A DNA stretch of 52,774 bases, from assembly GCA_903847315.1 (NCBI GenBank), contig CAINDG010000032.1, forward strand, positions 1 to 52,774, written 5' to 3'. The stretch's first letter is position 1. Each line of letters starts with the position of its first letter. The DNA is from an uncultured Planctomycetota bacterium (GTDB lineage: Bacteria; Planctomycetota; Phycisphaerae; Sedimentisphaerales; UBA12454). Shown one piece after another: positions 23,544 to 48,600 of the stretch. The notes under the pieces were generated by a model. It had not been told where the DNA came from, did no database searches, and saw nothing but the letters and a program-made list of their open reading frames with translations. Position numbers and translations under genes: made by a program.

Positions 23544-23963
23544 ATGAATAATCAAGTTGTGAAGATGTATGTTTTTTATTGTTCTAACGGCCTTGATAAA
23601 GACCAGTTGGCAGGCGTTTGCAGCGGAGCCGATGGCATTAATGTTAAGACAATCAGTCTGCCGTGTTCGGGCAAAATAGATGTTCCATATTTAATGAAAG
23701 CGTTTGAAACCGGCGCTGACGGGGCAGCAATAGTAACGTGTAAAAAAAATGAGTGCCAGAATACCGAGGGAAATTTGCGGGCACATAAACGCGCCGAAGC
23801 GGTGGAATCGCTCCTTGAGGAAATCGGAATGGGCAAGGGGCGAATGGCTGTTATCGAATTAAAAGACGATACGAAACAAACTCTTGGGGAAATAAATAAT
23901 TTCTTTAATAAGATAAAGAATCTGCCTAAATGTAATTTATGCAGCAACTCTGTTAAGGGATAG
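23544..23963 (+). CDS. MvhD-like protein with a degenerate iron-sulfur motif
   Basis: This 139-residue protein resembles MvhD, the [2Fe-2S] protein linking HdrA to an electron donor. It keeps the PCSGKID, AFETGADGAAIVTCKKNEC and EGNLRAHKRAE segments. However, the first motif, F-C-C-x-x-C in standard MvhD, is here F-Y-C-S-N-G, so two of the usual cysteines are lost. Extra cysteines occur at the end (KCNLCSNS). A canonical MvhD is present at 36463. It may have another cluster type or be structural. It starts the cluster, 14 bp before metF. Confidence 0.8.
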   Translation: MNNQVVKMYVFYCSNGLDKDQLAGVCSGADGINVKTISLPCSGKIDVPYLMKAFETGADGAAIVTCKKNECQNTEGNLRAHKRAEAVESLLEEIGMGKGRMAVIELKDDTKQTLGEINNFFNKIKNLPKCNLCSNSVKG

Positions 23964-23977
23964 GGAAGTAGCGTCAT

Positions 23978-24883
23978 ATGAAAGCAGACAGTAAACTCGC
24001 GAAGAAAGTGGAAAATGGAGATTTTATTGTTACCGCTGAGCATCAGCCCATGGCGGAAGCGAACGGTACAGCGACGGAAGCGGCGTTGAAATCGCTGGGC
24101 AAAGGACTTGTGGCCATCAATGTATCCGACAACCATCACGGTACGGCTATGTCTTCTCTTGCGGCATCGGTTGCAGTAATCAAATCCGGAGCCGAACCGA
24201 TTTATCAGGTTGTTACGCGTGACAGAAATCGAGTAGCGATTCAGTCCGATTTGCTCGGAGCAAGCTATCTTGGAATAAAAAATATATTGTGTTTGTCGGG
24301 CTATCATCAGGTGCTGACAGGATGCCCTGAATCGGCCAATGTTTACGATATCGATTCAACGCAATTTATCGAAATGGTAACGAGAATGTCAGAGAAAGGG
24401 GAACTTGATAACGGAGCTAAGATAGAGGGACAATTTTCAATGCTTGCCGGGGCGGTCGCGAACCCATTTTTGAAACCGCTGGAACTCAATATCCTCAAGC
24501 TCGATAAAAAAGTTGAAGCAGGCGCGAAATTTATTCAGACTCACGCCGTATTCGATGTTGAGACATTTAGTCAATGGCTTAATGTCGTTGTCAGCGAAGG
24601 CATCGATAAAAAAGCAGCGATTTTGGCGGGCGTATTACCATTAGACAGTGCCGATGAAGCCCAAAATCTGCGGGATACTTATACAGATTATAGTATTCCT
24701 GATGCGATTGTCGAACGGCTGAAAAAAGCAGGTGACAAGAATTCGCAGAAGAAAGAAGGATTGAATATTTGTATTGAAATAATCAGCAAGCTCAAAAAGA
24801 TGAAAGGCTTGAGAGGGATACATATTCTTTCGGGAGGTAAAGAAGAATTGGTGCCCCAGATTCTCGCCGCATCCGGGCTGTAA
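23978..24883 (+). CDS. metF: MetF, methylene-tetrahydrofolate reductase catalytic subunit
   Basis: This FAD enzyme reduces 5,10-methylene-THF to 5-methyl-THF, the last methyl-branch step of the Wood-Ljungdahl pathway and the source of methyl groups for methionine. It has 301 residues, the size of the catalytic barrel alone. Recognisable regions are FIVTAEHQPM near the start, NVSDNHHGTAMSS, the FAD-contacting YQVVTRDRNRVAIQSDLLGA segment, and KVEAGAKFIQTHAVFD. With MetV (36906), HdrABC and MvhD in the same cluster it matches the Moorella-type multisubunit reductase rather than the stand-alone NADH enzyme. Electron donor here is unknown. Confidence 0.87.
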   Translation: MKADSKLAKKVENGDFIVTAEHQPMAEANGTATEAALKSLGKGLVAINVSDNHHGTAMSSLAASVAVIKSGAEPIYQVVTRDRNRVAIQSDLLGASYLGIKNILCLSGYHQVLTGCPESANVYDIDSTQFIEMVTRMSEKGELDNGAKIEGQFSMLAGAVANPFLKPLELNILKLDKKVEAGAKFIQTHAVFDVETFSQWLNVVVSEGIDKKAAILAGVLPLDSADEAQNLRDTYTDYSIPDAIVERLKKAGDKNSQKKEGLNICIEIISKLKKMKGLRGIHILSGGKEELVPQILAASGL

Positions 24884-24897
24884 ATACTGGAAAGATT

Positions 24898-26295
24898 ATG
24901 CCGGAAAAATATCACATTAAGACCAAACCTGTACCGCCGCGTATGCCGCGCATTGGTAAATACGGCGTGGTGGACTGGCGTGAAGATTGCGCCCGCTGTC
25001 ATAACTGCGTAAAGAAAGCCTGCGTTTATGACCGCTACAGGCAGGAGGCGGATTATATTCGTAATCTCAGTAATGTGGATGCTTTGTTTTTCGATTGTAT
25101 GGGATGTTTATCGTGCGTGCAGGATTGCACAAAAGGGCTTCTGAAAATGGCGGTTAATCCTGAATACGAAAAACTTGGAGACAGTTACTGGACTCCTGAT
25201 ATTATTAAAACAACATGGCTTCAGGCGGAGACGGCGAAAATTCCGGTTTCCGGTGCAGGATATCGTGGACCGTTTTCAGGCCACGGTTTTGATTCGATGT
25301 GGACGGATATGTCTGAAATTGTTCGCCCAACACGGGACGGTATTCATGGACGAGAGTATATCAGTACATCAGTAGATATAGGCAGAAAACTCTCGTTTCT
25401 GGATTTCCAGGCCGGCAGGGTAACGAAAAATCCGCATCCTCTTGTCTCGATTCCGATGCCGCTGATTTTAGATATGCCTTCCGGCACACATACGCTGCCG
25501 CAGATTAATGAAATTATTATACAAACCGCAGTTAATACCGACATAATAGCAATAATTGAATGGCGTAATAAACCAGTCGATGAAAAAAAACTGGAACATA
25601 TAGCATTTTATTTAGCCCAGGATAGTCCTGCTGTCCCCAAAGAATTGCTGAAGAAAACCAGGCTGGTTGAAATAGCCGACAGCCCTCGGGTGAGAGAGCG
25701 TATCAAAGAGATAAAAGAAACACATCCCAAAATAGTTATAGCTATCAGGGTTGATTTGACGCCGGGAGGAATTGAACGCGCAGTTGAACTTGCACAGCTT
25801 AAAGAAGTTGAAGTGATACACGTTTCGGCAGACCTGAATGGCGATGAAATAGGAGTCCAGAAACCGCGTTTCATCAAGGATATGATACGACAAATTCATA
25901 CAACGCTGATAGAAAAAGGGCGCCGCGATGAAATAACGATTATAGCAGGCGGCGGAATCGCGCTGCCGGAACATGTGGCAAAAGCGATAATATGCGGCGC
26001 GGACCTGGTAACAGTCAATCTGCCGGTTTTAATTGCGATGGAATGTCATCTTTGCAGCAGCTGCAAGCCTGGGATGACGTGCCCGGCGAAGTTGGAAAAA
26101 ATAGATTTTGAATATGGTGTCGGGCGAATGACCAATCTAATAGCGGCCTGGCACGACCAGTTGATAGAAGTTATGGGAGCGATGGGAATGCGCGAAGTTC
26201 GCCGGCTTAGAGGCGATGTCGGCCGCGCAATGTTTTTTGAGAATCTTGAAAAGGAAACCTTTGGCAAATTATTCGGAACAAGAAGAAGCAATTAG
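24898..26295 (+). CDS. Glutamate-synthase-like FMN-domain protein with ferredoxin motifs (divergent paralogue)
   Basis: The 465 residues have an N-terminal [4Fe-4S] region (CARCHNCVKKAC at about 36-47; CMGCLSCVQDC at about 68-78), then a TIM-barrel related to the FMN domain of glutamate synthase. The barrel end is clear: IAGGGIALPEHVAKAIICGAD, then CHLCSSCKPGMTCP in the place of the GltB [3Fe-4S] motif. The front of the barrel is divergent and lacks the GGGMSFGSVS-like segment that its neighbour keeps, so catalysis on glutamate is doubtful. It may mainly carry electrons. It lies 14 bp after metF and overlaps the next gene. Confidence 0.8.
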   Translation: MPEKYHIKTKPVPPRMPRIGKYGVVDWREDCARCHNCVKKACVYDRYRQEADYIRNLSNVDALFFDCMGCLSCVQDCTKGLLKMAVNPEYEKLGDSYWTPDIIKTTWLQAETAKIPVSGAGYRGPFSGHGFDSMWTDMSEIVRPTRDGIHGREYISTSVDIGRKLSFLDFQAGRVTKNPHPLVSIPMPLILDMPSGTHTLPQINEIIIQTAVNTDIIAIIEWRNKPVDEKKLEHIAFYLAQDSPAVPKELLKKTRLVEIADSPRVRERIKEIKETHPKIVIAIRVDLTPGGIERAVELAQLKEVEVIHVSADLNGDEIGVQKPRFIKDMIRQIHTTLIEKGRRDEITIIAGGGIALPEHVAKAIICGADLVTVNLPVLIAMECHLCSSCKPGMTCPAKLEKIDFEYGVGRMTNLIAAWHDQLIEVMGAMGMREVRRLRGDVGRAMFFENLEKETFGKLFGTRRSN

Positions 26296-27841
26296 GGAAA
26301 TCCTGCCCGAAAATACGGTGAAGACATTAGTGCCGCATGAAAAGGTGGCTCGTGTTGTCAAATATGCACCGCCCCGGTATCGAAATGAAATTGCCAGGTA
26401 TATTGTCCATCGCAATGGAAAGTGCAAACTTTGCGGCAAATGTGCCCAATTGTGCAAGTATAAAGTCCATACGCTGAAATCAGGCTATAAATATTTCGGC
26501 GAACCGAATAATCATTTATGTATAGGAATATCCTGCGAAAAAACCGGACATTATTGCGTAGCGAACTGTCCCCAGGGAGCCTTGGAGCTTAAAGAAAGCT
26601 CGATGTATAAGGCAATAGGGGATTATCGCTGGCCGGCGGATTTGATTCTGGCGACGTGGAAAATGGCGGAAACCGGCGATGTGCCGGATGAGGCTTACGG
26701 CTATAATTATCAGTGCGGCAATTCCGGCGGGGGATTCGACAAACTTAGATTTAAGTTTCCGGATAAGCCGCCTGTAAAACTCAGTGAAGACCAGATAGAT
26801 ACAAGTATTCTGCTCAATAAACGCGACGATGGCCGGCCAAAAATAAGAATTGATGTTCCCTGGTATGGCGGCGGAATGTCGTTCGGCTCGGTCAGCAACG
26901 CAACGCAGTTATCCAAGGCAAGGGCCGCTACGGCGTGGAATACGTTTACCTGTACCGGCGAGGGCGGGTATATGGAACGAATGAGGCCATACGACGAACA
27001 TGTGATTACACAGGTTGCGACCGGTCTTTTCGGAGTGCGAGAGGAAACGATTCAGCGTGTTCCGATTGTAGAATTCAAATATGCCCAGGGAGCCAAGCCG
27101 GGTCTTGGCGGTCATTTGCTTGGCGATAAAAACACTGTCGCCGTCGCGAAAATGCGTGAAGCGGTGCTTGGCATATCATTGTTTTCGCCGTTTCCGTTTC
27201 ACAGCGTATATTCCATCGAAGACCATATGAAACATATCGACTGGATTAAGCATGTCAACAGGCGGGCATTGATATCGACAAAGGTATCTACGCCGACGGA
27301 TGTCGATATGGTAGCGGTAGGCAGTTATTCGGCAGGCACTCATATTGTACATATAGACGGCGGATACGGCGGAACCGGCGCGGCGCCTGATATCGCAAAG
27401 AAAAATATCGCGATGCCGATCGAATACGCGATAGGCAGGGTGCATAATTTTCTTACGGATGAAGGGGCTCGTGAAAAGGTAACGCTTATAGCAAGCGGCG
27501 GAATACGTTCGGCTCACGATATTGCCAAAGCTATCGCACTTGGCGCCGACGGGGTTGTCATAGGAACAGCGGAATTAGTCGCACTTGGATGTATTCGATG
27601 CAGCCGATGCGAAAGCGGACGAGGCTGCCCTCGCGGTATTGCGACAACTGACCCTGAATTGTGTAAAAAATTAAATATCGACTGGGGTACACAGCGAATT
27701 ATTAATCTTTATAACGCATGGCGCAAAGAGCTTGTCAGGATACTTCAGCGATTTGGAATGCGCAGCGTGACAGAACTTCGAGGCCGCAGCGACCTTTTAA
27801 TGCATCTTGACTATACCAACGATGTTGGAGTGAAAAAATGA
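26261..27841 (+). CDS. Glutamate synthase FMN domain, archaeal type, with ferredoxin domain
   Basis: This is the FMN and iron-sulfur part of glutamate synthase, which makes glutamate from 2-oxoglutarate and ammonia. I chose the TTG at 26261, which has AAGGA 5 bp upstream (526 residues); the ATG at 26216 is an alternative. The N-terminal cysteine motif CKLCGKCAQLC and a second set (CIGISC, YCVANCPQGAL) form ferredoxin-like clusters. The barrel has PWYGGGMSFGSVS, KPGLGGHLLG, HIDGGYGGTGAAP and IASGGIRSAHDIAKA, then CIRCSRCESGRGCP for the [3Fe-4S] cluster. All look intact. It overlaps the previous gene by 35 bp and the next by 4 bp. Confidence 0.87.
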   Translation: MANYSEQEEAIREILPENTVKTLVPHEKVARVVKYAPPRYRNEIARYIVHRNGKCKLCGKCAQLCKYKVHTLKSGYKYFGEPNNHLCIGISCEKTGHYCVANCPQGALELKESSMYKAIGDYRWPADLILATWKMAETGDVPDEAYGYNYQCGNSGGGFDKLRFKFPDKPPVKLSEDQIDTSILLNKRDDGRPKIRIDVPWYGGGMSFGSVSNATQLSKARAATAWNTFTCTGEGGYMERMRPYDEHVITQVATGLFGVREETIQRVPIVEFKYAQGAKPGLGGHLLGDKNTVAVAKMREAVLGISLFSPFPFHSVYSIEDHMKHIDWIKHVNRRALISTKVSTPTDVDMVAVGSYSAGTHIVHIDGGYGGTGAAPDIAKKNIAMPIEYAIGRVHNFLTDEGAREKVTLIASGGIRSAHDIAKAIALGADGVVIGTAELVALGCIRCSRCESGRGCPRGIATTDPELCKKLNIDWGTQRIINLYNAWRKELVRILQRFGMRSVTELRGRSDLLMHLDYTNDVGVKK

Positions 27842-30513
27842 ACGATGAATTAATAAAAAAACTTGCATATTCGAGAAAACAACTGGCTGAAAACCTTAAC
27901 TATGTTTCAGAGGTAAAGAAGGAAGCGGAAGAAGGCGGCTGCGGCGTTGTTGGTTTTTGCTGCAGTGAGCCGGTGCCGGGCAAACATATTTATGAACCTT
28001 CGCGGCAGATGCACAATCGAGGAAACGGCAAAGGCGGAGGTATAGCCGCGGTTGGATTTGTGCCCGAACAGCTGGGCGTCAGCAGAGAAGTGCTCGAAAA
28101 TTATTATATGCTGCATGTGGCGTTTCTGGACGATAAAGTCCGGCCGGAAATAGAAAAGCAATTTATCACGCCTAATTTCGATATAACGACAATGAGCCAG
28201 CTCGATAAAGTTGATGACTGGAAATCCGTGCCCGGGCTGGAAGTTAAACCTCCCGATGTTTGTCGCTATTTTGTTCGCGTAAAACCGGCGGTGCTGGATG
28301 CGTTTGTCGCAAAAAATAATCTGCAAAAACTTGACCGCGGAGAAGCGGAAGAAGAATTTATCAGCCAGAATAGTTTCCAGCTTAATCAGAAGTATTACGC
28401 GTCTTTGGGCGAGAAGAGGGCATTTGTTCTTTCGCACGGCAGAAATATTATGATACTCAAGGTCGTCGGCTTTGCTGAAGCGATTGTAAAATATTATAAA
28501 ATCGAAGACCTTCGCGCTCACGTTTGGATAGCTCATCAGCGTTTCCCGACAAAGGGCCGTGTATGGCATCCCGGCGGAGCGCATCCTTTCGCGGCCATCG
28601 ATATGGCTCTTGTGCACAACGGCGACTTTGCCAATTACCATTCCGTAACCGAATATCTCAGGCAGCGAAATATATATCCGCAGTTTCTGACCGATACGGA
28701 AGTATCAGCGCTTCTGTTTGATTTATTAAGCCGGACTTATCATTATCCGCTTGAGTATATCATCGAGGCGCTGGCCCCGACGACAGAATTGGATTTTGAC
28801 CGTCTGGATGAAGAGAAACAAAAGGTTTACCGTGCCATACAGGCCACCCACATGCATGGTTCGCCTGACGGCCCGTGGTTTTTCATTATCGCACGCAATA
28901 TTGCCCGCGAAAAGAAATTGCAGCTAATGGGTATCACCGATACAGCGATGCTTAGACCTCAGGTATTCGCGTTCTGCGACGGCGAGGTACAGGTTGGACT
29001 GATATGCTCGGAAAAACAGGCCATTGACGCGACATTGCTTAGTCTGTCGCACGATGACGACAGAATTTGCCCTGTGGCGGACAAATACTGGAATGCCCGC
29101 GGCGGCAGTTATACCGACGGCGGGTCGTTTATATTCAATCTTGAAAAAAATTCCGCGGGCAAAATGAAAATCACGTGCACGGACAAGTTCGGCAAAGAAG
29201 TTCAAATGCCCGCAGGTACGGAAAGATGCGATTTTACACAGGGAGTTCTGGTATCCTCTGAATCCGAGGAAGCAATCCAGGCAGTAATCAACGAAAGATT
29301 TGTTCCCGGCAACAGTACCGCGATTTTCGAGATGATGCGAGACCTGGTACCCCAGTGGACGTTCGATGAGTTTCGGCTGGCGTGTCAGCAAATAGTGAAC
29401 CAGGCGAAAAACGCTGCCGAGACGACTACCGCTATAGAGGTTTTGGCTCTGCTTAATGACCGCAGATACTCGACCGGTTCGAAGAAACGCAGTCATATTC
29501 TTCATATAATACACTGTGAACTGAAACGGCTGCTCAATGAAATTCCCAATATAAGCAATAATAATTCTTATGATGGAGCATTTCGTCTTATCGATTTTGA
29601 GACGCGAGGAAGCTTAAGAGGACCGCAAGGCAATGAAAAGACTCTTGTAATCGATGCGGCGCATTTCCCGCCGGAAGGGAACGACTGCGACGCGACCCTG
29701 CTGGTCAACGCGTATATGAAAGGGTGGCGGCATTTTATCAGCTTTAATTGTATCGGTCAGCGGTACATAGGCTGCGGGCTTGGGCCGGATACCGATGAAG
29801 TGACAATAGATGTTTACGGCAGCAGCGGCGATTATCTCAGCTCTGGAATAGACGGACTTACAATCAGCGTGCATGGAAACGCACAGGACCAGCTTGGCCA
29901 AATTATAAAAAGAGGAAAATTAGTTATTTACGGCGACGTGGGCCAAACATTTATGTATGGCGCCAAAGGCGGAAGTGTCTATGTTCTGGGTAATGCCGCG
30001 GGAAGACCTCTTATCAATTCTGTCGGCAGACCCAGAGTGGTAATAAACGGTACCTGTCTCGATTTTCTCGCTGAATCGTTTATGGCAGGCGACCCTTATA
30101 ATGGCGGCGGTTTTGTCGTATTAAACGGCGTCAAATTCGATGACAACGGACAATTAGTTTCTCTGCCGCATCCTTATCCGGGCAGTAACCTGTTTTCTCT
30201 CGCATCTGGCGGGGCGATTTATGTACGCGACCCGAATAATATGCTGGTCGACCAGCAACTGAACGGCGGGCACTTTGCCGAGCTGACGGAGGCGGACTGG
30301 GATTTGATACTGCCATACCTTGAAGAAAATCAAAAACTTTTTGGAATAACAATTGACCAGCTTTTGACAGTGGACGGCCGAAAACAGAAACCGGAAAAAG
30401 TTTATCGTAAAGTTGTACCCGGCCATATTTCCGCTGCAGCCTCGGAAGAAGATACAGACGATACTGAAGAGGCCTTCGAAGAAGAGGAAGAACCGGCCGC
30501 AAAATCAGAATAG
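27838..30513 (+). CDS. Glutamine amidotransferase plus GXGXG domain of glutamate synthase, fused
   Basis: The 891-residue protein joins the two glutamate-synthase parts missing from its neighbours. The class II amidotransferase has its nucleophile region EGGCGVVGF after about 33 residues that would have to be cleaved, as in GltB propeptides, with AHQRFPTKG and ALVHNGDFANY downstream. The second half has the GXGXG beta-helix: GCGLGPDTDEVTIDVYG, VIYGDVGQTFMYGAKGG and VYVLGNAAGRP. A very acidic tail (EEDTDDTEEAFEEEEE) ends it. The FMN domain is separate, so the usual GltB order is split and rearranged. Ammonia channelling to the FMN protein is inferred. Confidence 0.85.
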   Translation: MNDELIKKLAYSRKQLAENLNYVSEVKKEAEEGGCGVVGFCCSEPVPGKHIYEPSRQMHNRGNGKGGGIAAVGFVPEQLGVSREVLENYYMLHVAFLDDKVRPEIEKQFITPNFDITTMSQLDKVDDWKSVPGLEVKPPDVCRYFVRVKPAVLDAFVAKNNLQKLDRGEAEEEFISQNSFQLNQKYYASLGEKRAFVLSHGRNIMILKVVGFAEAIVKYYKIEDLRAHVWIAHQRFPTKGRVWHPGGAHPFAAIDMALVHNGDFANYHSVTEYLRQRNIYPQFLTDTEVSALLFDLLSRTYHYPLEYIIEALAPTTELDFDRLDEEKQKVYRAIQATHMHGSPDGPWFFIIARNIAREKKLQLMGITDTAMLRPQVFAFCDGEVQVGLICSEKQAIDATLLSLSHDDDRICPVADKYWNARGGSYTDGGSFIFNLEKNSAGKMKITCTDKFGKEVQMPAGTERCDFTQGVLVSSESEEAIQAVINERFVPGNSTAIFEMMRDLVPQWTFDEFRLACQQIVNQAKNAAETTTAIEVLALLNDRRYSTGSKKRSHILHIIHCELKRLLNEIPNISNNNSYDGAFRLIDFETRGSLRGPQGNEKTLVIDAAHFPPEGNDCDATLLVNAYMKGWRHFISFNCIGQRYIGCGLGPDTDEVTIDVYGSSGDYLSSGIDGLTISVHGNAQDQLGQIIKRGKLVIYGDVGQTFMYGAKGGSVYVLGNAAGRPLINSVGRPRVVINGTCLDFLAESFMAGDPYNGGGFVVLNGVKFDDNGQLVSLPHPYPGSNLFSLASGGAIYVRDPNNMLVDQQLNGGHFAELTEADWDLILPYLEENQKLFGITIDQLLTVDGRKQKPEKVYRKVVPGHISAAASEEDTDDTEEAFEEEEEPAAKSE

Positions 30514-30528
30514 ATTGCGAAAGAAAAT

Positions 30529-31098
30529 ATGACGATAACGATTAGAAAAACGAAAAAAAGCGACAGTCTTAAGGAGATTGTTGAGCAGCTAAGCGGCGCA
30601 GACTTAAGTATTTGTCTGCAATGCAAGAAATGCTCAGGCGGATGTCCTGTAGGCAAACAGACATTGTCGAGGCCTTCGGAAATTATGCGGAGACTGCATT
30701 TAAACGCAGGTAACGAACTGCTTGAAAGCGATATTATTTGGACATGTGTATCGTGCGAGACCTGTTCGGCTCGCTGTCCGATGGGAATTGAAGTAGCGGC
30801 GATAATAGACGCCTTGCGCAAACTGGCACTTGAAAGAAAGGCCTCGAAACAGAAAGGCAATGTGCCGCTGTTTAACAAGGCATTTTTGAAAACAGTAGAA
30901 ATTTTTGGCCGAACATACGAAATCGCGATGATAGCCGCCTATAAACTTGGGACAGGGAAGTTTATGAGTGATACTGAAAAATTTCCTACAATGCTCAAAA
31001 AAGGCAAAATATCTCTGATACCTTCGCTTAATGGCGACAGAAAAATCGTCCGAAGGATATTCAAAAAAACTAAAGAGAATAAAGGGGCCAAAGTATGA
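30529..31098 (+). CDS. hdrC: HdrC-like iron-sulfur subunit
   Basis: This is the heterodisulfide-reductase-type electron-relay subunit. The 189 residues hold two complete [4Fe-4S] motifs, CLQCKKCSGGCPVG (about residues 25-38) and CVSCETCSARCPMG (about 68-81). The helical context between them (RPSEIMRRLHLN) is typical of HdrC. A basic C-terminal extension follows. It starts 15 bp after the amidotransferase gene and overlaps hdrB by 4 bp. No membrane helix is seen, so this is the soluble type. Confidence 0.9.
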   Translation: MTITIRKTKKSDSLKEIVEQLSGADLSICLQCKKCSGGCPVGKQTLSRPSEIMRRLHLNAGNELLESDIIWTCVSCETCSARCPMGIEVAAIIDALRKLALERKASKQKGNVPLFNKAFLKTVEIFGRTYEIAMIAAYKLGTGKFMSDTEKFPTMLKKGKISLIPSLNGDRKIVRRIFKKTKENKGAKV

Positions 31099-31973
31099 GG
31101 TATGCTTACTTTCCAGGATGCTCGGCTGAATCGACAGCCCGCGATATGCACGAATCTACTTTGGCAGTGGCCAAGGCCTTAGGCATAGAGATGGTAGAAC
31201 CAAAAGGCTGGACATGCTGCGGTGCTACTGCGGGCCATCAGACGGATCGTGTATTGGCTGCTTCATTGCCCGCCGCCAACCTGATCAAGGTTAAGGATAT
31301 GGGACTGGATATGGTTGTCAATTGCGCAGCCTGCTACAACAGAATGAAAATGGCAAACTACGAAATCTCGACTGATTCGCAAATCCGCACAAGCGTCTGC
31401 GACGCAATCGGCAGAGATTATGATGGTTCGGTTAATGTTCGGCACTTTGTAGAGGTACTTCTTAAAGATGTCGGACTTGAGACAATTGCCAAGACTGTCA
31501 AACATTCGCTCAAAGGTCTTAAGGTGGCTTGTTATTACGGCTGCCTGCTTGTTCGTCCGCCGAAAGTTATGAAATTCGATGACCCTGAAAATCCGACGTC
31601 GCTCGATAAGCTGGTAAAAACTATAGGCGGAGAAAGTATTGACTGGTCGGGCAAGGTCGAATGCTGCGGCGGAGGTTTGTCGCTTACGAGAACTGATGTA
31701 GTAGTCCAGCTAACAGATTCGATTCTCGGTATGGCTCAAAGTGCTGGGGCCGATTGTATAGCGGTAAGCTGCCCAATGTGCCAGGTCAATCTTGATTTGC
31801 GGCAGCAGGACATTAAAAAGCAAACCGGCAGAGATTATGAAATGCCGATTGTATATATCACGCAGCTTCTGGGATTAAGTTTCGGCATCAGCCCGGATAA
31901 ACTCGGATTCAAAAAACTTATGGTTCCGGCTTCAAATATTTTAGAAAAGGTGGCTCAAAACAGCAATGAGTAA
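31095..31973 (+). CDS. hdrB: HdrB-like subunit with two CCG domains
   Basis: In methanogens HdrB reduces the heterodisulfide at noncubane [4Fe-4S] clusters; in bacteria it serves other acceptors. The 292 residues carry two cysteine-rich domains: YFPGCSAEST, GWTCCGAT and NCAACYNR, then YYGCLLVRP, VECCGGGL and SCPMCQVNL. All usual ligands seem present. It is between hdrC and hdrA, coupled to both by overlaps of 4 and 8 bp. In this locus it probably passes electrons towards MetF/MetV; the true acceptor is not readable from sequence. Confidence 0.92.
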   Translation: MRYAYFPGCSAESTARDMHESTLAVAKALGIEMVEPKGWTCCGATAGHQTDRVLAASLPAANLIKVKDMGLDMVVNCAACYNRMKMANYEISTDSQIRTSVCDAIGRDYDGSVNVRHFVEVLLKDVGLETIAKTVKHSLKGLKVACYYGCLLVRPPKVMKFDDPENPTSLDKLVKTIGGESIDWSGKVECCGGGLSLTRTDVVVQLTDSILGMAQSAGADCIAVSCPMCQVNLDLRQQDIKKQTGRDYEMPIVYITQLLGLSFGISPDKLGFKKLMVPASNILEKVAQNSNE

Positions 31974-34900
31974 ACTCGATGACAAAAAAACAGGTGCAGT
32001 GCTTGTGCAGGGCGGTGGTATCGCCGGCGTTCAGGCGGCGCTGGATTTAGCAAACAGCGGTTTTAAGGTATATCTCGTCGAGCGCGACGCCGCTATCGGC
32101 GGAATGATGGCGCATCTTGACAAGACATTTCCGACAGGCGACTGCGCAACTTGTATTGTCTCGCCAAAACTTGTCGAGTGCGCACGAAATTTAAATATTG
32201 AGATATTGACGCTTTCGGAACTGGTGGACCTGCAGGGACGGCCCGGCAATTTTAAAGCTACGGTCAAAAGGTATCCCCGATATGTGGACGAAGATAAATG
32301 TACCGGCTGCAGCGAATGCACACAGGTTTGCCCGGTGGACATACCGGACGAATTCAACCGATGCCTGGGAACCAGAAAGGGCATAGCCAAGCATTATGCA
32401 CAGGCGACTCCGAATATTTTTGGAATTCTTAAAAACGGTCACTCGCCTTGTAAGATTAAATGTCCTGCGAATGTAAATGTTCAGGGTTATGTCCAGCTTA
32501 TAAAGAAAAAAGAATACGTTAAAGCCGTCAATCTGATTCGCCAAAGAAATCCGCTATCCGCAATTTGCGGCAGGATATGCACACATCCGTGCGAAGCTGA
32601 ATGTATGCGAGGCAAAGCCGACGACCCGATTGCGATAAGATTGCTCAAACGGTTCGCGTCGGATAAAGAAATGGAAATGCTCCAGGCAGAGCAATTGGAA
32701 CTGCCGCCTGAAAAAACTCCTTCGCCTGGCGCGAAAAAAATCGCGATAATAGGTTCAGGCCCGGCAGGGCTTACCGCGGCAAACGATTTGGCAGATGCAG
32801 GCTTTGCTGTTACGGTCTATGAAGCACTCGACGCTGCCGGCGGTATGCTTCGATGGGGTATTCCGGAGTATCGGTTGCCGAAAAAAGTCTTGGACCACGA
32901 AATCGAACTTATTCGGCGAAAGGGTGTTAATTTTGTTTATAACTTCCGTGTCGGTCAGAATATTACTATTCACACGCTTCGCAAGGACAATGATGCTGTA
33001 TTCATCGCGGCCGGCGCCAACAAAAGCAGAAAACTTGGTATCGAAGGCGAGCAAATAAACGGAGTTCTTCACGGTATTGAATTCCTCAGACAGGCTGCTT
33101 CAGCAAATAAACCGAAAGTTAAAGACAAAGTGGCAGTTATCGGCGGCGGCAATGTCGCTGTCGATGTTGCAAGAACAGCCCTGCGGCTCGGTGCTAAAAA
33201 TGTCGAAATGATTTGTCTTGAGCAGCGAAATGAAATGCCTGCTTATAAGGAAGAAGTTGAAGCAACACTGGCAGAAAATATTAAGATTCGCAACGGGTGG
33301 GGACCGAAGAGAATTATAAGCAAAAATTCCGCGGTCGCGGTAGAATTAAAACGCTGCACAAGGGTTTTCGACGACCAGAAGCGTTTCCGTCCCGTTTATG
33401 ATGAAAAAGACCTAATGACGGTCGATGCGGACCAAATTATCGTTGCCATCGGCCAGATGGTTGATGAGCAGCTTGTCGAGCACATAGATATATTGAGCGA
33501 ACGCGGCTGTTTTAAGGCCGACCCGGTAACCGGACAGTGTTCGCTGAAAAATGTTTTTGCCGGCGGTGATAACGCTTCAGGACCTTTGTCTGTTATTGAG
33601 GCGATAGCCGCAGGCAAACGGGCTGCGGAATCAATCGAACGGTTCATAAACGAAAAAGATTTATTGGCCGACCGTTTCAATGAAACTATCCGCCCGATTC
33701 CGGAGGATTTACTTCCTTCCATAAAGGATGTAGAGAAAAAATCGCGACCAAAGCCCGAAGAACTTCCAGCCTCAATAAGACTGAACAGTTTCGATGAAGT
33801 CGAAAAGGGACTTACCGAAGAACAGGCTCTTGCAGAGGCTGAGCGTTGTCTAAATTGCGCACTGTGTTCGGAGTGCAACCAATGCGTTGAGGTCTGCGAG
33901 CAGCACGCCATCGACCACGCTATGAAAGAGCGGACAATCGAACTGCAAGTCGGCTCGGTTATACTTACCCCCGGTTTCAAAGAGTTCGATGCAGCGCGAA
34001 AAGGCGAATTTGGTTACGGACGATATCCAAATGTCGTTACAAGCGTACAGTTTGAAAGAATACTCTCGGCGGCAGGTCCGTTCGAAGGTCATGTCATACG
34101 TCTGTCGGATGGCAGGGAGGCAAAACGCATCGCCTGGATTCAGTGCGTAGGTTCGAGAGACTCAGCTTGCGGCAACGAATACTGCTCGTCGATATGCTGT
34201 ATGATGGCTACAAAACAGGCTATGGTTGCCAGCGACCACGTCAGCGGACTGGATGCGACTATCTTTTATATCGATATACGTGCTTATGGCAAAGATTTTG
34301 ACCAGTATTATGAGCGTGCAAAAGCTCAGAAAAATATACATTATATAAAGAGCATTCCTTCGCGGATTTATCAGGATTTCCAGAGCAAAGACCTTAGTGT
34401 CAGTTTCATAGATGAAAACAATCAGGTTCAGATGAGAGATTTTGACCTTGTTGTATTGTCGGTCGGAATGGAATCGCCGGTCTCGATGAAAGATATTGCT
34501 TCCCGGCTCGAATTAAAACTCAACGATTATAATTTCTGCCTTACTGACAGGCTGGATCCGCTGTCAACTTCTATACCCGGCGTGTTTGTCGGCGGGGCAT
34601 TCCAGGAGCCTAAAGATATTCCGGAAACGGTAACACAGGCAAGTGCCGCCGCTTCTATGGCGATGGAACTGCTGGCGTCGTCACGCAATACTCTTATAAC
34701 TAAAAAGGTTTATCCGCCGGAGCACGATGTTACCGATGAAAAACCGCGAATCGGCGTTTTTGTCTGCCATTGCGGAATGAATATCGCCTCGGTGGTGGAT
34801 GTTGAAAGCGTGGTTAAAAATATCGAGCATCAGCCTGACGTTGTCTATGCGAATCATACGATGTTTACCTGTTCGGATACGAGTCTGTCGAATATCAAGG

Positions 34901-36459
34901 ATATGATTCGCGAACATCGGCTTAATCGTATCGTAGTCGCGTCTTGTACGCCTCGAACACACGAGCCTTTGTTCCGCGAAACACTGCGAGAAGCAGGCCT
35001 GAACCCGTATCTATTCGAAATGGCTAATATACGAGACCAGTGTTCCTGGGTGCACTCGGCACTGCCGCAGTCGGCCACAGAAAAAGCGACCGAACTCGTA
35101 AAAATGGCAATCGCCAGGGCGCATTTGCTTTCTCCTCTTGAGAGCGGAACTTTGCAGGTCAACCAAACAGGCCTGGTCATTGGCGGAGGGCTGAGCGGAA
35201 TGACGGCGGCTCTGGCATTGGCAAACCAGGGATTTGTTACGCATCTTGTTGAACATGCTGACCGTCTTGGCGGGAACCTGCACGATATTCACTTTACATT
35301 TGAGCACAATGACATAACCGGCTTTACAAAAAATCTTATTAAACAGGTTGAGAGTCATCCTAATATTAAAGTTTATCTGGGGACCGAAATCGCAGCCATT
35401 GCAGGACACATTGGCAAATTTAATATAACACTCAGCAAAACCGGCCAAAAATCCGAAATTACGACCGGAGCTATAATCGTTGCCACAGGAGCAGGCAAGG
35501 CACAAACCAGCGAATTTTTGTATGGCAAATCCGAACAGGTTTTGACGCAGGTTGAACTTGAAAAACGCCTGTTTGAAAAAACATATCCTGCAAAGGGACA
35601 AAATATAGTTATGATTCAGTGCGTCGGCTCGCGCAACGATGAGCATCCATATTGCAGCCGAATTTGCTGCTCTATGGCTGTCAAAAATGCTTTAGCAATC
35701 AAAAAGCAGGACCCCAATGCTAACATCTATGTGCTTTACAGAGACATTAGAACTTACGGCTTTAGGGAAAAATATTATATGCAGGCACGCGAAGCCGGCG
35801 TTGTCTTTATCCGTTACAATCCTGATGCTCCACCGCAGATTCGTCAGAACGGCGAACTTCTAGTGACGCTCAAGAGTCCTGACCTGTCCGAGCAGATTGA
35901 AATTGAAGCTGATAATGTCGTGTTAAGCACTGGCGTCCAAGCTGATAAAGAAAACAACAAGCGTATCTCGGATATGCTCAAAGTGCCGCTTAACGCTGAT
36001 GGTTTTTACGTTGAGGCGCATATGAAATTGCGTCCGGTAGATTTTACCACGGAAGGTATTTTCCTTTGCGGCCTTGCGCATTCACCCAAGGCCATTGATG
36101 AGAATATCTCGCAGGCACGGGCCGCCGCTGCACGAGCCGCTACGGTACTATCCAAAACGCAGCTCGAAGTCAGCGCTCAGGTTTCTTACGTTGATCAGCA
36201 GAAGTGTATATCCTGTATGACCTGCGTTAACACTTGTCCATATTCAGCGCCATTCTGCAACAATGACGGCAAAGGTCAAATCGAAGCCGCCAAGTGTATG
36301 GGCTGCGGCATCTGTGCATCTGAGTGTCCGGCACGAGCGATACAACTGCATCATTTTGAGACAGACCAGTTCCTGGTTATGATTCGCCAGTTGTTTGAAG
36401 ATGGAAACGGACAAGCACAACAGGAAACAGAATTAAAAAAATTAACGGAAAAAGTATAA
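31966..36459 (+). CDS. hdrA: Giant HdrA: HdrA core with GltD/NfnL-type insertion fused to a second complete HdrA
   Basis: The 1497-residue flavoprotein has three dinucleotide sites. Order: FAD fold GGGIAGVQAAL (about 16) with Cys loop TGDCATC; [4Fe-4S] CTGCSECTQVCP (about 110); a GltD/NfnL-like insertion (about 155-565) with IGSGPAGLTAAND (about 263) and an NAD(P)H fold GGGNVAVDVA (about 391); more cysteines; HdrA motif IQCVGSRD (about 724). Then comes a second HdrA with CHCGMNIA (about 932), CTPRTHEP (about 994), FAD fold GGGLSGMTAAL (about 1073), IQCVGSRN (about 1217) and a C-terminal 2[4Fe-4S] ferredoxin (about 1411-1460). HdrA holds the bifurcating flavin in known complexes. The second FAD fold lacks the TxDCATC loop. 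NAD(P)H use and bifurcation are inferred. Confidence 0.9.
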   Translation: MSKLDDKKTGAVLVQGGGIAGVQAALDLANSGFKVYLVERDAAIGGMMAHLDKTFPTGDCATCIVSPKLVECARNLNIEILTLSELVDLQGRPGNFKATVKRYPRYVDEDKCTGCSECTQVCPVDIPDEFNRCLGTRKGIAKHYAQATPNIFGILKNGHSPCKIKCPANVNVQGYVQLIKKKEYVKAVNLIRQRNPLSAICGRICTHPCEAECMRGKADDPIAIRLLKRFASDKEMEMLQAEQLELPPEKTPSPGAKKIAIIGSGPAGLTAANDLADAGFAVTVYEALDAAGGMLRWGIPEYRLPKKVLDHEIELIRRKGVNFVYNFRVGQNITIHTLRKDNDAVFIAAGANKSRKLGIEGEQINGVLHGIEFLRQAASANKPKVKDKVAVIGGGNVAVDVARTALRLGAKNVEMICLEQRNEMPAYKEEVEATLAENIKIRNGWGPKRIISKNSAVAVELKRCTRVFDDQKRFRPVYDEKDLMTVDADQIIVAIGQMVDEQLVEHIDILSERGCFKADPVTGQCSLKNVFAGGDNASGPLSVIEAIAAGKRAAESIERFINEKDLLADRFNETIRPIPEDLLPSIKDVEKKSRPKPEELPASIRLNSFDEVEKGLTEEQALAEAERCLNCALCSECNQCVEVCEQHAIDHAMKERTIELQVGSVILTPGFKEFDAARKGEFGYGRYPNVVTSVQFERILSAAGPFEGHVIRLSDGREAKRIAWIQCVGSRDSACGNEYCSSICCMMATKQAMVASDHVSGLDATIFYIDIRAYGKDFDQYYERAKAQKNIHYIKSIPSRIYQDFQSKDLSVSFIDENNQVQMRDFDLVVLSVGMESPVSMKDIASRLELKLNDYNFCLTDRLDPLSTSIPGVFVGGAFQEPKDIPETVTQASAAASMAMELLASSRNTLITKKVYPPEHDVTDEKPRIGVFVCHCGMNIASVVDVESVVKNIEHQPDVVYANHTMFTCSDTSLSNIKDMIREHRLNRIVVASCTPRTHEPLFRETLREAGLNPYLFEMANIRDQCSWVHSALPQSATEKATELVKMAIARAHLLSPLESGTLQVNQTGLVIGGGLSGMTAALALANQGFVTHLVEHADRLGGNLHDIHFTFEHNDITGFTKNLIKQVESHPNIKVYLGTEIAAIAGHIGKFNITLSKTGQKSEITTGAIIVATGAGKAQTSEFLYGKSEQVLTQVELEKRLFEKTYPAKGQNIVMIQCVGSRNDEHPYCSRICCSMAVKNALAIKKQDPNANIYVLYRDIRTYGFREKYYMQAREAGVVFIRYNPDAPPQIRQNGELLVTLKSPDLSEQIEIEADNVVLSTGVQADKENNKRISDMLKVPLNADGFYVEAHMKLRPVDFTTEGIFLCGLAHSPKAIDENISQARAAAARAATVLSKTQLEVSAQVSYVDQQKCISCMTCVNTCPYSAPFCNNDGKGQIEAAKCMGCGICASECPARAIQLHHFETDQFLVMIRQLFEDGNGQAQQETELKKLTEKV

Positions 36460-36462
36460 ATT

Positions 36463-36909
36463 ATGAAACCGGAAGTTTTCGAACCTAAAATAATTGCTTT
36501 TTGCTGCCACTATTGTGCGTATTCGTCGGCGGATTTGGCGGGCTCAATGCGAATTCAATACCCGCCTAATGTGCGTATTATCCGCACGCCCTGCACAGGC
36601 AGACTTGAGACCGAATATTTTATAAAGGCATTTGAAAATGGCGCCGACGGCGTGTTTATCGCGGGCTGTCTCGAAGGCGGCTGCCATTTTGTCGAAGGAA
36701 ACCTTTGCGCAAAACGCCGTGTGAATTACACCAGAGAAATGCTCGAAGAAATCGGAATTGAAAAAGAACGTCTCCGGATGGTAAACGTTTCTGCCGCGAT
36801 GGGACGGCCTTTGGCTGATTTAATTATTGAAATGGTTGAAACTGTTCGCAAACTGGGTCCGAGCCCTATAAATTTAAATGGTTCATCTAAAAAGGAAAGC
36901 CGATTATGA
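36463..36909 (+). CDS. mvhD: MvhD, hydrogenase/Hdr-linking [2Fe-2S] subunit
   Basis: MvhD transfers electrons between HdrA and a donor enzyme. The 148 residues have the full motif set: FCCHYCAYSSADLAG, PCTGRLE, and GADGVFIAGCLEGGCHFVEGN with the expected cysteines. It lies 3 bp after hdrA and overlaps metV by 4 bp. No hydrogenase large subunit is nearby, so its donor is not hydrogenase from this locus; in the Moorella-type complex it accompanies MetFV-HdrABC. Confidence 0.93.
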   Translation: MKPEVFEPKIIAFCCHYCAYSSADLAGSMRIQYPPNVRIIRTPCTGRLETEYFIKAFENGADGVFIAGCLEGGCHFVEGNLCAKRRVNYTREMLEEIGIEKERLRMVNVSAAMGRPLADLIIEMVETVRKLGPSPINLNGSSKKESRL

Positions 36910-37574
36910 TAGTCGCTGAAAGAAAAAAAATACCCGACCTGCTGGAAATAGTAAAAAATCATAAAAAACTTCTTGTGCTCGGTTGCGGGACTTGCGTTAC
37001 CGTATGCTTGGCCGGCGGACAGCGGGAGGTCAGTATTATAGCCTCTGCTTTACGGATGGCAGCGAAATTAAAAGGGCTGCAGCTTGAAGTTGAAGAGTTA
37101 ACTATAGAACGCCAATGCGACAACGTTTTTATCGAGCAGGCCGCTGATGCAATACAGAGAAACGATGCTGTTCTTTCGCTTGCCTGCGGTGCGGGCGTGC
37201 AGGCTATTGCCGAGCGTTACCCATCCAAACCGGTCTATGCCGGCCTTGATACGTCGTTCATCGGCATTCTCGAAGAAAGAGGAATTTGGGCCGAAAAATG
37301 CGCTGCTTGCGGTCAATGTGTTCTCCATCTTTATGGCGGCATCTGCCCGGTCACACGCTGCGCCAAACATATGCTTAACGGTCCATGCAGTGGTTCGCGA
37401 GAAGACCGTTGTGAAATTAATCCTGAACGCCAATGTGCCTGGCAGCTTATATACAAGCGTCTCAAGGAAATTGGTCAGCTCGATAGGCTTAAAAAAATCA
37501 AACCACCCAAAAATTGGAATCGAAGTCAGGCCGGCGGCTATCGCACAATCATCCGTGAAGATCATAGGGTTTGA
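36906..37574 (+). CDS. metV: MetV, zinc/iron-sulfur partner of MetF
   Basis: This is the partner subunit of Wood-Ljungdahl-type methylene-THF reductase, with the family's C-terminal domain. The signature is CAACGQCVLHLYGGICPVTRC followed by KHMLNGPCSG (about residues 134-165). The N-terminal cysteine region is VLGCGTCVTVCLAGG. Length 222 is normal. It is the last gene of the cluster, overlapping mvhD by 4 bp, and is separated from metF by the whole glt-hdr block, whereas in Moorella metV and metF are adjacent. Confidence 0.88.
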   Translation: MIVAERKKIPDLLEIVKNHKKLLVLGCGTCVTVCLAGGQREVSIIASALRMAAKLKGLQLEVEELTIERQCDNVFIEQAADAIQRNDAVLSLACGAGVQAIAERYPSKPVYAGLDTSFIGILEERGIWAEKCAACGQCVLHLYGGICPVTRCAKHMLNGPCSGSREDRCEINPERQCAWQLIYKRLKEIGQLDRLKKIKPPKNWNRSQAGGYRTIIREDHRV

Positions 37575-37908: not shown

Positions 37909-38027
37909 CATTATAAGCCATTAAAACCATCTATATTCTGAATTACAATATGCTTATCTCAAAAATCTTGATAAAAAGTGGCTCGATGCTTATAATACAT
38001 CAGTTAAATCTGGAGTTAAGAGGGTTT

Positions 38028-38993
38028 ATGAAAACAAGCAGGATTAGCAGAGTAATTCAACTCCTGACGACATTGCAATCAGGGCAATCCTATGGGAGTG
38101 GGGATTTAGCTGAAATATTAAAAATAAGCAAGCGAATGGTTTTCAGGGATTTGAAAGAACTGCGAAAAGTAGGTATACCCTGTAGTTTCAGTAACAAGGC
38201 TCATTGCTATAAAATAGATCCGGAATTTTTTCTTTCCGTACCAAATTTAGATGCTCAGGAGGCATTAAGCTTACTTTTACTTACTCGTAAAGCAAGAAAT
38301 CATATTTATTTTCCGTTCAGGGATTCAGCGCTTAGGGCAGCGATTAAGATAGAAAGCAAATTGCCGGAAAAAACAAAGAGATTTTGCAATACGGCCCTCG
38401 AGAAAATCTCTATAAAGGCTGACCCGCAGGAAAGGTTAGATTTATTGGACCAGAAATTTGCACAATTTCTGGAAGCTATTTTGGACAAGCGAGTTGTTGC
38501 TATTCATTATGATTCGCCCCTTGAACGGGAAAACATAGTAACCAATTTAAGCCCTTACCACCTGATGTACAATAATAATGCGTGGTATGTACTTGGTAAA
38601 ACAGAACTTGATAAAAAAGTTCGTGTTTTTAAGCTTAACCATATTAAAAACCTAAATATATTGGATAAATGTTTTGTTGAAGATGAAACATTTGATTTGT
38701 CTGAATGTCTTGGCCGTGCGTGGTCGATGATACCGGAAGGCAGACTTTATAACATCAAACTCAGATTTTTGCCGGAAGTTGCTCGCAAAGTTGCTGATAT
38801 CCAATGGCACAGTACGCAAACGGTTATCTTACAAGATGACGGATCGATAATAATGGAATTCCGTGTTGACGGTCTCAATGAGATAACATGGTGGGTTTTA
38901 AGCTATGGCGACCAGGTGCAGGTTCTTGCTCCGGCAGCTTTACGACAAAGAGTTATAGAAATAGCCCAAAATATGGTCAGGCAGAATACCTGA
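38028..38993 (+). CDS. WYL-domain transcriptional regulator with N-terminal HTH
   Basis: The 321-residue protein (ATG at 38028, with GAGGG just upstream; an upstream ATG at 37950 has no good site) has a winged-helix N-terminus around SGDLAEILKISKRMVFRDLKELRKVGIP. The WYL region follows, with YHLMYNNNAWYVLG and later FKLNHIKNL, and a C-terminal WCX-type end. Such proteins sense a ligand, sometimes nucleotide-related, and control neighbouring genes. It is first in an apparent operon with an ECF sigma factor and an anti-sigma-like protein. Ligand and targets are unknown. Confidence 0.85.
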   Translation: MKTSRISRVIQLLTTLQSGQSYGSGDLAEILKISKRMVFRDLKELRKVGIPCSFSNKAHCYKIDPEFFLSVPNLDAQEALSLLLLTRKARNHIYFPFRDSALRAAIKIESKLPEKTKRFCNTALEKISIKADPQERLDLLDQKFAQFLEAILDKRVVAIHYDSPLERENIVTNLSPYHLMYNNNAWYVLGKTELDKKVRVFKLNHIKNLNILDKCFVEDETFDLSECLGRAWSMIPEGRLYNIKLRFLPEVARKVADIQWHSTQTVILQDDGSIIMEFRVDGLNEITWWVLSYGDQVQVLAPAALRQRVIEIAQNMVRQNT

Positions 38994-45603: not shown

Positions 45604-48600
45604 TTAAGAGGGCAGGGGCATACCCACTTCTACGACAGCATAATGTTCTATGCGATCGTCCACAAGATGGATTTTTTTATCTTGCTGTTCGATATTATCA
45701 AGCAGCACGCGTTTGACGTTCCAAGTTTCGGGGCCTGTCTTCACAATTCGAATATGGAAGAAAGTGTTGCGGTAACAGTAGTGCAAAGTATATTCGTTCC
45801 ACTCTGCCGGCAGAAGCGGCGAAAAAGACAGCGTATCCACCTGCAGCCGAAGTCCTAACAGGTGTTCGACCAAAAGCTGATACATCCATCCGGAAGAGCC
45901 GGTATACCATGTCCATCCACCTCTGCCCTCGTGCCCGAGAGCCGAATACACATCTGCGGCCACAACGTATGGCTCTACTTTGTACACTGATGCAGTTTCC
46001 GGAGAATCGGAACGGTGAATAGGATTAATCATCGAAAATAATCTCCATGCCTGCTCAGCATTGTGGGTACGGGCAACAGCGATAGCAGCCCAAATCGCGG
46101 CGTGAGTGTACTGTCCGCCGTTTTCTCGCACACCGGGAATATAGCCGCAAATGTAACCGGGATCCATTGCCGTCCCATCAAATGGCGGGTCCAACAAACG
46201 TATCGTGCGGGTTTTGGGGTCGATAAGACTATTCAGTGCGGCCTGCAGTGCTTGATTGGCCTTTTGCTGATCGGCCGCGCCACTCAGTATCGCCCAAGAT
46301 TGCGGCAGCAAGTCAACGCGGCATTGATTATTTCGTGCCGAGCCTAAGGGACTGCCATCATCAAAAAACGCCCGCAAATACCATTTACCATCCCATGCGT
46401 GGGTCTCAATATTGTTCTGCAGACTTTTTGCATGCGCATGACATTTATCCGCAAACTCAATATTGTTTCGCTGCCGGGCCAGAGTTTCGAATGATTTGAG
46501 AGTGTCATATAAGAAAAATGCCAGCCAGACGCTCTCGCCAGAACCCTTGTGGCCGACCCGGTTCATTCCGTCGTTCCAGTCTCCCGAGCCCATTAGGGGC
46601 AGACCATGAGAGCCGTACCGCATAGCGTGATTCAGTGCACGGACGCAGTGTTCATAAACGGAAGCCGACTTATCCGAAACTTGCGGCATACCATAATGGC
46701 TATCCTCCGATGGATCAAGGAGAGGCGCCTCGAGAAACGGAATCTGCTCATCCAGTACACCGGTGTCTCCGGTTGCGGCAACGTAACGACATGCGACATA
46801 GACCAGCCAGAGATAATCGTCCGAGATACGTGTGCGTACGCCTCGCCCCAACGGAGGATGCCACCAGTGCTGAACGTCTCCATCGCGGAACTGCCGGCTG
46901 GAGCATGTCAGCAGATGCTGCCTTGTAAGCCATGGACACTCGTATAAAAAGGCCAGAGAATCCTGCAGTTGGTCGCGGAAACCAAATGCCCCTCCGGATT
47001 GATAATATCCGCTGCGTCCCCAAAAACGGCAGGCCAGTGTCTGGTACAGCAGCCAGTGATTGACCAGCAGGTTCACCGAGGCATCGGGCGTGTCCACATG
47101 AATCCCACCCAGGTTGTGTTTCCACGTATCCCAAACATCTTCCAGGACACATCTGGCACCATCAATACCGTTGCTCTGTGCCAAAAAATCACGCGCCTGT
47201 TGTTCACTGTCCGCCGCACCGAGCACAAATACAACCTGGACTTGCTCTCCCGGCGGAATTTCCACATACGCCTGAATAGCTCCGCACGGGTCGTCGCCTG
47301 TGCCTACGTGATTGGACAGACTTACTCCACGCATAGCCGCGGGTGAATTCAAGGAACCATTACGTCCCAGAAACTCAGCCCGAGACGTCGTTAATGTCTG
47401 TTGAGAATGGCTGCAGTGAAAAAAAGCCACAGATTTATTAAAGTCTGCTTTGAAAGTGTTCCAGGCGAATATCGCACCGGTTTGTGAATCCAGCCGATTT
47501 ACGACATACATAGAGTGTCGTGCGCGACTCTCACCCAGGACCCATTCGACATAACCGGTCAGACTCAGCTTGCGGCTTCGGTTCGAAAGATTCCGAACTG
47601 TTATGGTTGTAAACTTAAGGGGCGCCGCTGGCGATACATAAGTAAAGACTTCAGAGAAGATACGCTCCTCGTTGTGTTCAAAAGTGGAATATCCTAATCC
47701 ATGGCGCGAGACATAGGATGTTAGGCCTCGAGTCGGCCATGGTGTTGGCGACCAGAACCTGCCTGTCTCCTCATCACGGATATAGAAGGCTTCGCCGCTG
47801 GTGTCACAAACAGCATCGTTATACCAGGGCGTTAGACGAAATTCATGCGCGTTCTTATACCAGGTATAGGCCCCCCCTGATTCGCTGATGACCGAGCCGA
47901 AATCCGGGTTTGCCAGGACATTGGCCCAAGGCGCCGGAGTGACCGACCCAGGACGTAGAATGATTACATATTCCCTGCCGTCATTACTAAATCCGCCCCA
48001 GCCGTTGAAGAACAGAAGTTCGCGATGGGGTGTATCTGCATCATCGGACACAGTTTTCCCCGGCTTGCGCGTCGGCTTTAGCAAAGGTAAGTCAAATTTA
48101 GATATGGCGTGCCTTTCCAGATGTTCAGCCAAAGTGCCAATGCGGTCGCTCAGTACAATTCGACTAATTGCGCGAAGCAGCATACGATCCTCTTCAGGAA
48201 CCTGGTCGATGTTCCGCACGAATATGCCAGCGGGCTGATTGAGAGCTTTGGCCTCGAGACTGGCGTTTACAAGGCCGATGATCGCATCCATAAGACTTTG
48301 GCGGTATCCCATGTACGCTTCACACAGGATGACCAAATCAACTCGCACTCCCTTATTGCGCCAATATGCGTGCGCTTTGAGCACCTGGCGAACGAGGTCG
48401 AGCCCCAATTGGTCAGACACTCGAAGAGTTACTATGGGCAAATCACCGGATATACCGTATGCCCAAAGATCGGATTGACCTTTGCGATTGCGTGCAATCA
48501 GGCTGGGGCGAGCGCGCAAACGCGGGTTGGAATATATGATAAGACCGGCCAACTGACTGAATAACTGACTATCAGATTCCCTAGCCTGCAACTGGTGTAG

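Follow-up and report, generated by a model that had tools for sequence, protein, structure and literature searches.

What might a glutamate synthase, split into pieces and partly duplicated, do within an operon of Hdr genes? The question arises from contig CAINDG010000032.1 of an uncultured Planctomycetota bacterium (assembly GCA_903847315.1), whose 52,774 nucleotides, read on the forward strand, form the window analysed here. Ten co-directional genes (23544-37574, + strand) follow one another in the order MvhD-MetF-GltX-GltF-GatG-HdrC-HdrB-HdrA-MvhD-MetV, and because their intergenic spacings lie between -80 and +15 bases, the run reads as one operon. A preliminary description had recognised three glutamate synthase genes inside an Hdr operon, which we confirm for GltX (24898-26295), GltF (26216-27841) and GatG (27838-30513), all co-directional with HdrCBA-MvhD downstream. 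It had missed MvhD and MetF at the operon start and MetV at its end, which changes the context. From conserved gene order, conserved residues and predicted folds, we consider it about an even chance that GltX, GltF and GatG (hereafter, the trio) are pieces of one amidotransferase of the glutamate synthase type that is wired to electron bifurcation by Hdr. The operon suggests that nitrogen chemistry and energy-saving electron transfer are connected in an undescribed way.

Conservation of the gene order

A scan with GltX over 84,980 species genomes retrieved at least 535 relatives; locus counts refer to the best 80 of these, with the loci that had room on the contig as denominators. GltF adjoined GltX in every case (78/78), and GatG came next in 58 of 63 loci. 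MetF was encoded just upstream of GltX in 60 of 69 loci and an MvhD-type gene upstream in 67 of 69, while Hdr genes lay downstream in 41 of 46. The best 80 loci span about ten phyla, and by record titles the carriers include Phycisphaerae, Syntrophaceae and other Desulfobacterota, Dehalococcoidia, Bacteroidales, Ignavibacteria, Omnitrophota, Sumerlaeota, Armatimonadota and Hydrogenedentes. Since almost all of these genomes were assembled from metagenomes, single taxon assignments may be wrong. No relative was found among the viral contigs scanned. Recurrence in most of the 80 loci places the arrangement far beyond chance, and such deeply conserved gene order supports the earlier proposal that an enzyme like glutamate synthase is coupled to Hdr. 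A ten-gene operon whose order is kept across many phyla likely matters to these anaerobes, and it is open to direct biochemical test.

Five loci contain the trio with MvhD and no Hdr genes, MetVF being nearby in four of the five. Three genomes of the window's phylum encode the trio without adjoining Hdr or MetF, one of them with GltX and GltF fused; locus L071 carries a natural GltX-GltF fusion. The loci lacking Hdr or MetF indicate that GltX-GltF-GatG is a unit of its own.

GatG and GltF

GatG joins a class II glutamine amidotransferase domain (GATase; residues 35-452, 27940-29193, +) to a GXGXG beta-helix (about residues 601-864, 29638-30429, +), and the matches to GATase_6 and GXGXG bear out the fusion noted before. 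Cys35, Arg61, His260-Asn261-Gly262 and Asp286 are at least 98% conserved among 56 homologues and include the N-terminal nucleophile (Ntn) glutaminase set, that is, an N-terminal Cys (C35), Arg (R61), Asn-Gly (N261-G262) and Asp (D286). The AlphaFold model of GatG (predicted local distance difference test score, pLDDT, 83.9; predicted template modelling score, pTM, 0.86) superposes, over residues 35-864, on residues 1-1501 of 1ofe_A (580 residues, 3.3 A, Z 26.3). It matches both end domains of the glutamate synthase alpha subunit, with GATase and beta-helix in their native mutual placement, and C35 falls on Cys1 of 1ofe/1ea0. Judging by this superposition, GatG is the alpha subunit minus its central and synthase domains.

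The excised synthase domain is GltF, a separate protein that matches PF01645 with 307 bits; its barrel for flavin mononucleotide (FMN) and 2-oxoglutarate, delimited by the PF01645 match in an own-genome search, spans 26813-27760 (+). When the first ATG is taken, GltF starts 80 nt before the end of GltX. Residues E249, K288, Q291, K294 and R314 are at least 98% conserved in 76 sequences; they correspond to the 2-oxoglutarate/FMN residues Glu903, Lys966, Gln969, Lys972 and Arg992 of Synechocystis glutamate synthase (GltS). The canonical 2-oxoglutarate-site Gln (Gln978) is replaced by His300. Loss of function was considered for this exchange and rejected, as the archaeal-type GltS of locus L102 carries the same His. 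GltF has two N-terminal, ferredoxin-like four-Cys sites (C70/73/76/80 and C102/107/114/118) and, like L102, a conserved cluster motif of four Cys, C459-x2-C462-x2-C465-x5-C471. Compared with the canonical [3Fe-4S] motif C-x5-C-x4-C, it keeps C459, C465 and C471, adds Cys462 and has one residue more before the last Cys. The preliminary description had credited this gene with complete FMN and [3Fe-4S] motifs; the former stand, and in place of the latter there is a motif of four Cys rather than three. With the site residues of GltF and the glutaminase residues of GatG kept, the synthase looks catalytic.

GltX, a diverged paralogue of GltF

GltX matches PF01645 over the back half only (profile 184-368, 53 bits). 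It lacks the entire AQGAKPG segment, which holds the 2-oxoglutarate residues, and the GGTGAAP loop. It had been described as a diverged copy without the front of the barrel; the divergence is real, but the front is not missing, since all eight strands of the barrel are present in the AlphaFold model. The best PDB matches of this model are the synthase domains of glutamate synthases (7mfm_G, Z 22.9; 2vdc_A, Z 22.6). GltX has three four-Cys sites, two of them N-terminal (C31,34,37,42; C67,70,73,77) and a third at C383,386,389,395. Its most conserved motif, TDMSEIVRPTRDGxxGREYI, lies in residues 117-150, a region of low model confidence that may need the complex to become ordered. GltX and GltF form sister clades in a tree (Shimodaira-Hasegawa-like approximate likelihood ratio test, SH-aLRT, 98), a result to be taken with caution for long branches; rows L107 and L115 of the tree were ignored as probably wrongly picked reading frames. 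Having lost the 2-oxoglutarate-site segment while keeping the barrel and three Cys clusters, GltX looks like an electron relay, a predicted role.

Some reading frames around GltX call for separate mention. In L059:8597-11302, one frame fuses an unrelated N-terminal protein with GltX across a masked X stretch and is probably an assembly or masking artefact. In two small genomes (L016:1236-3074 and L015:3369-5267), GltX is preceded by a gene whose product resembles an FAD-linked oxidase fused to an HdrC-like iron-sulfur (Fe-S) domain. The window's own assembly holds a second MvhD-MetF with a GltX start that stops at the contig edge (L020, G000:C22:1-1672); this GltX is 90% identical to that of the window in protein and 76% in DNA. 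Either the operon has a paralogue or the assembly includes DNA of a related strain.

Hdr genes and the operon MetF

Downstream of the trio are HdrC (30529-31098, +; TIGR03290, 73 bits), HdrB with CCG domain matches (31095-31973, +; PF02754 in two stretches, TIGR03288 216 bits) and HdrA (31966-36459, +; NF040770 in four stretches, 995 bits). HdrA, of 1497 residues, consists of two HdrA-like halves and a GltD-like insert (about residues 157-570, 32434-33675, +; PF14691, PF07992), with Fer4_20 at residues 159-238 and Pyr_redox_2 at 258-550. The GltD-like insert was found in 28 loci. In 13 others, such as L065:9536-13869, HdrA is split and NuoE-, NuoF- and NuoG-like parts stand where the insert would be; this naming comes from reading L065 and L074 and otherwise from similarity to the L065 protein, and a fourteenth counted match, in L059, lies elsewhere on the contig. 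Given this exchange, the insert is probably best seen as the HdrA unit's exchangeable NAD(P)H entry. The domain inserted in HdrA had been noticed before and is there; its proposed role as the missing GltD partner is weakened by the 13 Nuo-type loci, and also by the five loci without Hdr and the three genomes without adjoining Hdr.

The run opens with an MvhD/FlpD-like electron-transfer protein (23544-23963, +; PF02662, 83 bits), followed by MetF, a flavoprotein resembling methylenetetrahydrofolate reductase (MTHFR; 23978-24883, +; PF02219, 100 bits); it closes with a second MvhD (36463-36909, +; PF02662, 168 bits) and MetV, the DUF5981 partner of MetF (36906-37574, +; PF12225, 127 bits). The operon MetF keeps the catalytic Glu21 and has Tyr109 in place of the pterin-binding Asp. 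By residue counts, the Glu is present in 67 of 69 loci and the Asp in only 8 of 69, most of which lack Hdr or belong to another lineage, and the operon MetFs have an invariant Gly-x-His at that position; ten stand-alone MetFs from the same genomes all retain the Asp (10/10). In E. coli MTHFR, Asp120Asn leaves 0.3% of kcat (PMC11094777). The window's genome has a second MTHFR, with Asp, fused to a homocysteine methyltransferase. Acetyl-CoA synthase was searched for in this genome and not found; it was detected in 22 of 48 carriers, and a general role of the trio in the Wood-Ljungdahl pathway was rejected on these grounds. As the Asp is lost, a second MTHFR is present and acetyl-CoA synthase was not found, we infer that the operon is more than the Moorella methylene-tetrahydrofolate reductase complex with some genes added.

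Glutamate genes around the operon

Another glutamate synthase was encoded no more than about 22 kb from the operon in 7 of the about 34 carriers having one, against a chance expectation of 0.35, the distance having been chosen after seeing the data. It is gltBD in G296, G298, G317 and G319, and another split GltS in G300, G310 and G314. Glutamate dehydrogenase (GDH) is near the operon in G298 and G327, about 1.5 kb away in the latter, and the neighbourhood of G298 comprises GDH, CarA-like and CarB-like genes, gltD and gltB. Such neighbours connect the operon with the metabolism of glutamate and nitrogen. In L143:1491-6606, a second split GltS (GATase, FMN subunit and a GXGXG-GltD fusion) comes right after the operon's MvhD-MetV. 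Replacement of GltB by the trio was also considered: five of the six other carriers in a sample of the phylum had no canonical GltB match, but neither did about two thirds of the whole sample, which leaves no evidence for it.

Proposed function and alternatives

If the trio acts as a glutamate synthase, glutamine would be hydrolysed by GatG, which with its beta-helix would form the shell of the GltS alpha subunit, and GltF would dock into GatG to supply the excised synthase domain. Glutamate would form on the FMN of GltF, by the reductive joining of ammonia to 2-oxoglutarate or to a similar 2-oxo acid. GltX, its substrate site lost, would serve as an Fe-S relay passing electrons from MvhD/HdrA to GltF. 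NAD(P)H would be the electron source, with the HdrA unit (by its GltD-type or NuoEFG-type entry) and MvhD handing the electrons on. Reductive amination, being exergonic, could then be one arm of flavin-based bifurcation by Hdr, whose other arm would involve ferredoxin or the MetVF unit. We infer that the proteins form a complex, which way the electrons flow, that they are bifurcated, and which oxo acid is used. Were a GltS indeed fed through HdrA, anabolic amination would be a branch of bifurcation, and energy usually lost in nitrogen assimilation would be saved as reduced ferredoxin. We put forward only tentatively, as a doubtful proposition, a new electron-bifurcating supercomplex in about ten phyla of anaerobes that combines glutamine-dependent reductive amination and Hdr with a MetF-like enzyme, whose substrate would be an unrecognised one-carbon (C1) compound or imine.

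Several observations weigh against glutamate synthesis by the trio. On contig C54, the window's genome encodes gltB-gltD next to glnA, amtB and PII genes, and it also has GDH; the operon is therefore not the host's only glutamate route, and a third one needs a reason. A normal GltBD elsewhere, together with loss of the 2-oxoglutarate site, had been named as the argument against glutamate synthesis; the former exists, but the latter does not apply, the site being kept. GltF has two motifs, SPFPFHSVYS and STPTDVDMVAVGSY, present in no other GltS compared, from which a changed substrate is possible, and plain glutamate synthesis gives no reason for MetF to stand beside the trio in nearly all loci. 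The main rival, unlikely in our estimate, builds on the same facts. The trio and the altered MetF would be one new C1-nitrogen enzyme, in which an imine or iminium, made from a C1 carrier that is not ordinary methylene-tetrahydrofolate, reacts with glutamine-derived ammonia and a flavin hydride, Hdr moving the electrons; MetF and the trio would then carry out a new reaction joining C1 and nitrogen metabolism. Besides the GltF motifs, it would account for MetF adjoining the trio even without Hdr, for an operon MetF that keeps Glu21 and mostly lacks the Asp that all stand-alone MetFs keep, and for a genome with another MTHFR and no acetyl-CoA synthase found; the three genomes with the trio and no adjoining MetF, and the ordinary 2-oxoglutarate residues of GltF, argue the other way.

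The remaining alternatives give the trio other tasks. Reuse of the fold purely for electron transfer, raised in the preliminary description, suits GltX, whose substrate site is gone, and the many cluster sites and constant redox partners would agree with a scaffold that passes electrons between MetVF and Hdr over its FMN and Fe-S clusters, the amidotransferase chemistry being vestigial. It does not suit GltF and GatG, whose 2-oxoglutarate/FMN and glutaminase residues are at least 98% conserved across phyla, and we think such a scaffold distinctly improbable. Hdr systems are reversible in principle, and the host has gltBD for synthesis, so the trio might instead oxidise glutamate as a catabolic glutamate dehydrogenase, with NAD(P)+ or ferredoxin receiving the electrons by way of Hdr and MvhD. 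The GDH beside the operon in G327 would be in keeping with this, but a strictly conserved glutaminase site is useless for glutamate oxidation, and there is little chance that the reverse reaction is the right one. An N-methylglutamate synthase handling methylamine, like MgsABC/GlxBCD, is very improbable. Mgs is likewise split into GATase, GXGXG and FMN-barrel parts and tied to folate C1 genes, but GltF lies apart from the MgsC clade and has the substrate Lys (K288) that is absent from MgsC, and no methylamine genes were seen near the operon.

Neighbouring features

Upstream of the ten-gene run are genes resembling complex I membrane subunits, recognised by eye. A WYL-domain protein right downstream of the operon (37950-38993) is a possible regulator. 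A minus-strand open frame of 2389 residues (45604-52773) runs to the window edge.

Comparison with known systems

The archaeal-type split GltS, for which the Subdoligranulum cluster L102 served as reference, shares several features with the trio: its FMN subunit bears Fe-S sites at the N terminus, a motif of four Cys past the barrel and His at the canonical 2-oxoglutarate-site Gln, and its GATase has a similar long insert. However, its GATase and GXGXG proteins are separate and its FMN subunit is single, whereas the window has a fused GatG and two copies of the FMN subunit, and adds MetVF and Hdr genes. Bacterial NADPH-glutamate synthase GltBD has the same GATase, synthase and beta-helix folds in a single GltB of about 1500 residues with a separate GltD; here, there are three polypeptides without a dedicated GltD, extra Fe-S sites and an extra paralogue. 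N-methylglutamate synthase MgsABC is set apart by its MgsC clade, which excludes GltF, and by the absence of the Lys966 equivalent (K288 in GltF).

On the electron-transfer side, Moorella-type MetVF-HdrABC-MvhD also groups MetF, MetV, HdrABC and MvhD in one cluster (PMC9012536, PMC7325909, PMC5736913), but glutamate synthase genes are not described there, and the window differs in its MetF without the pterin-binding Asp and its genome in which acetyl-CoA synthase was not found. In HdrL of Desulfobacterium autotrophicum, HdrA likewise carries a fused GltD-like domain for NAD(P)H, and MvhD follows (PMC2702500); GltX, GltF and GatG genes are not described with it. In the F420-dependent glutamate synthase clusters of anaerobic methanotrophic archaea (ANME), GltS subunits are also combined with a new module for electron donation (PMC9012536), which is an FrhB-type F420 protein there and Hdr-MetVF here. 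No description of the combined cluster was found in the open-licence literature searched. The parts of the operon (split GltS, HdrL and MetVF-Hdr) are already known, and it is their combination that did not turn up in that literature.

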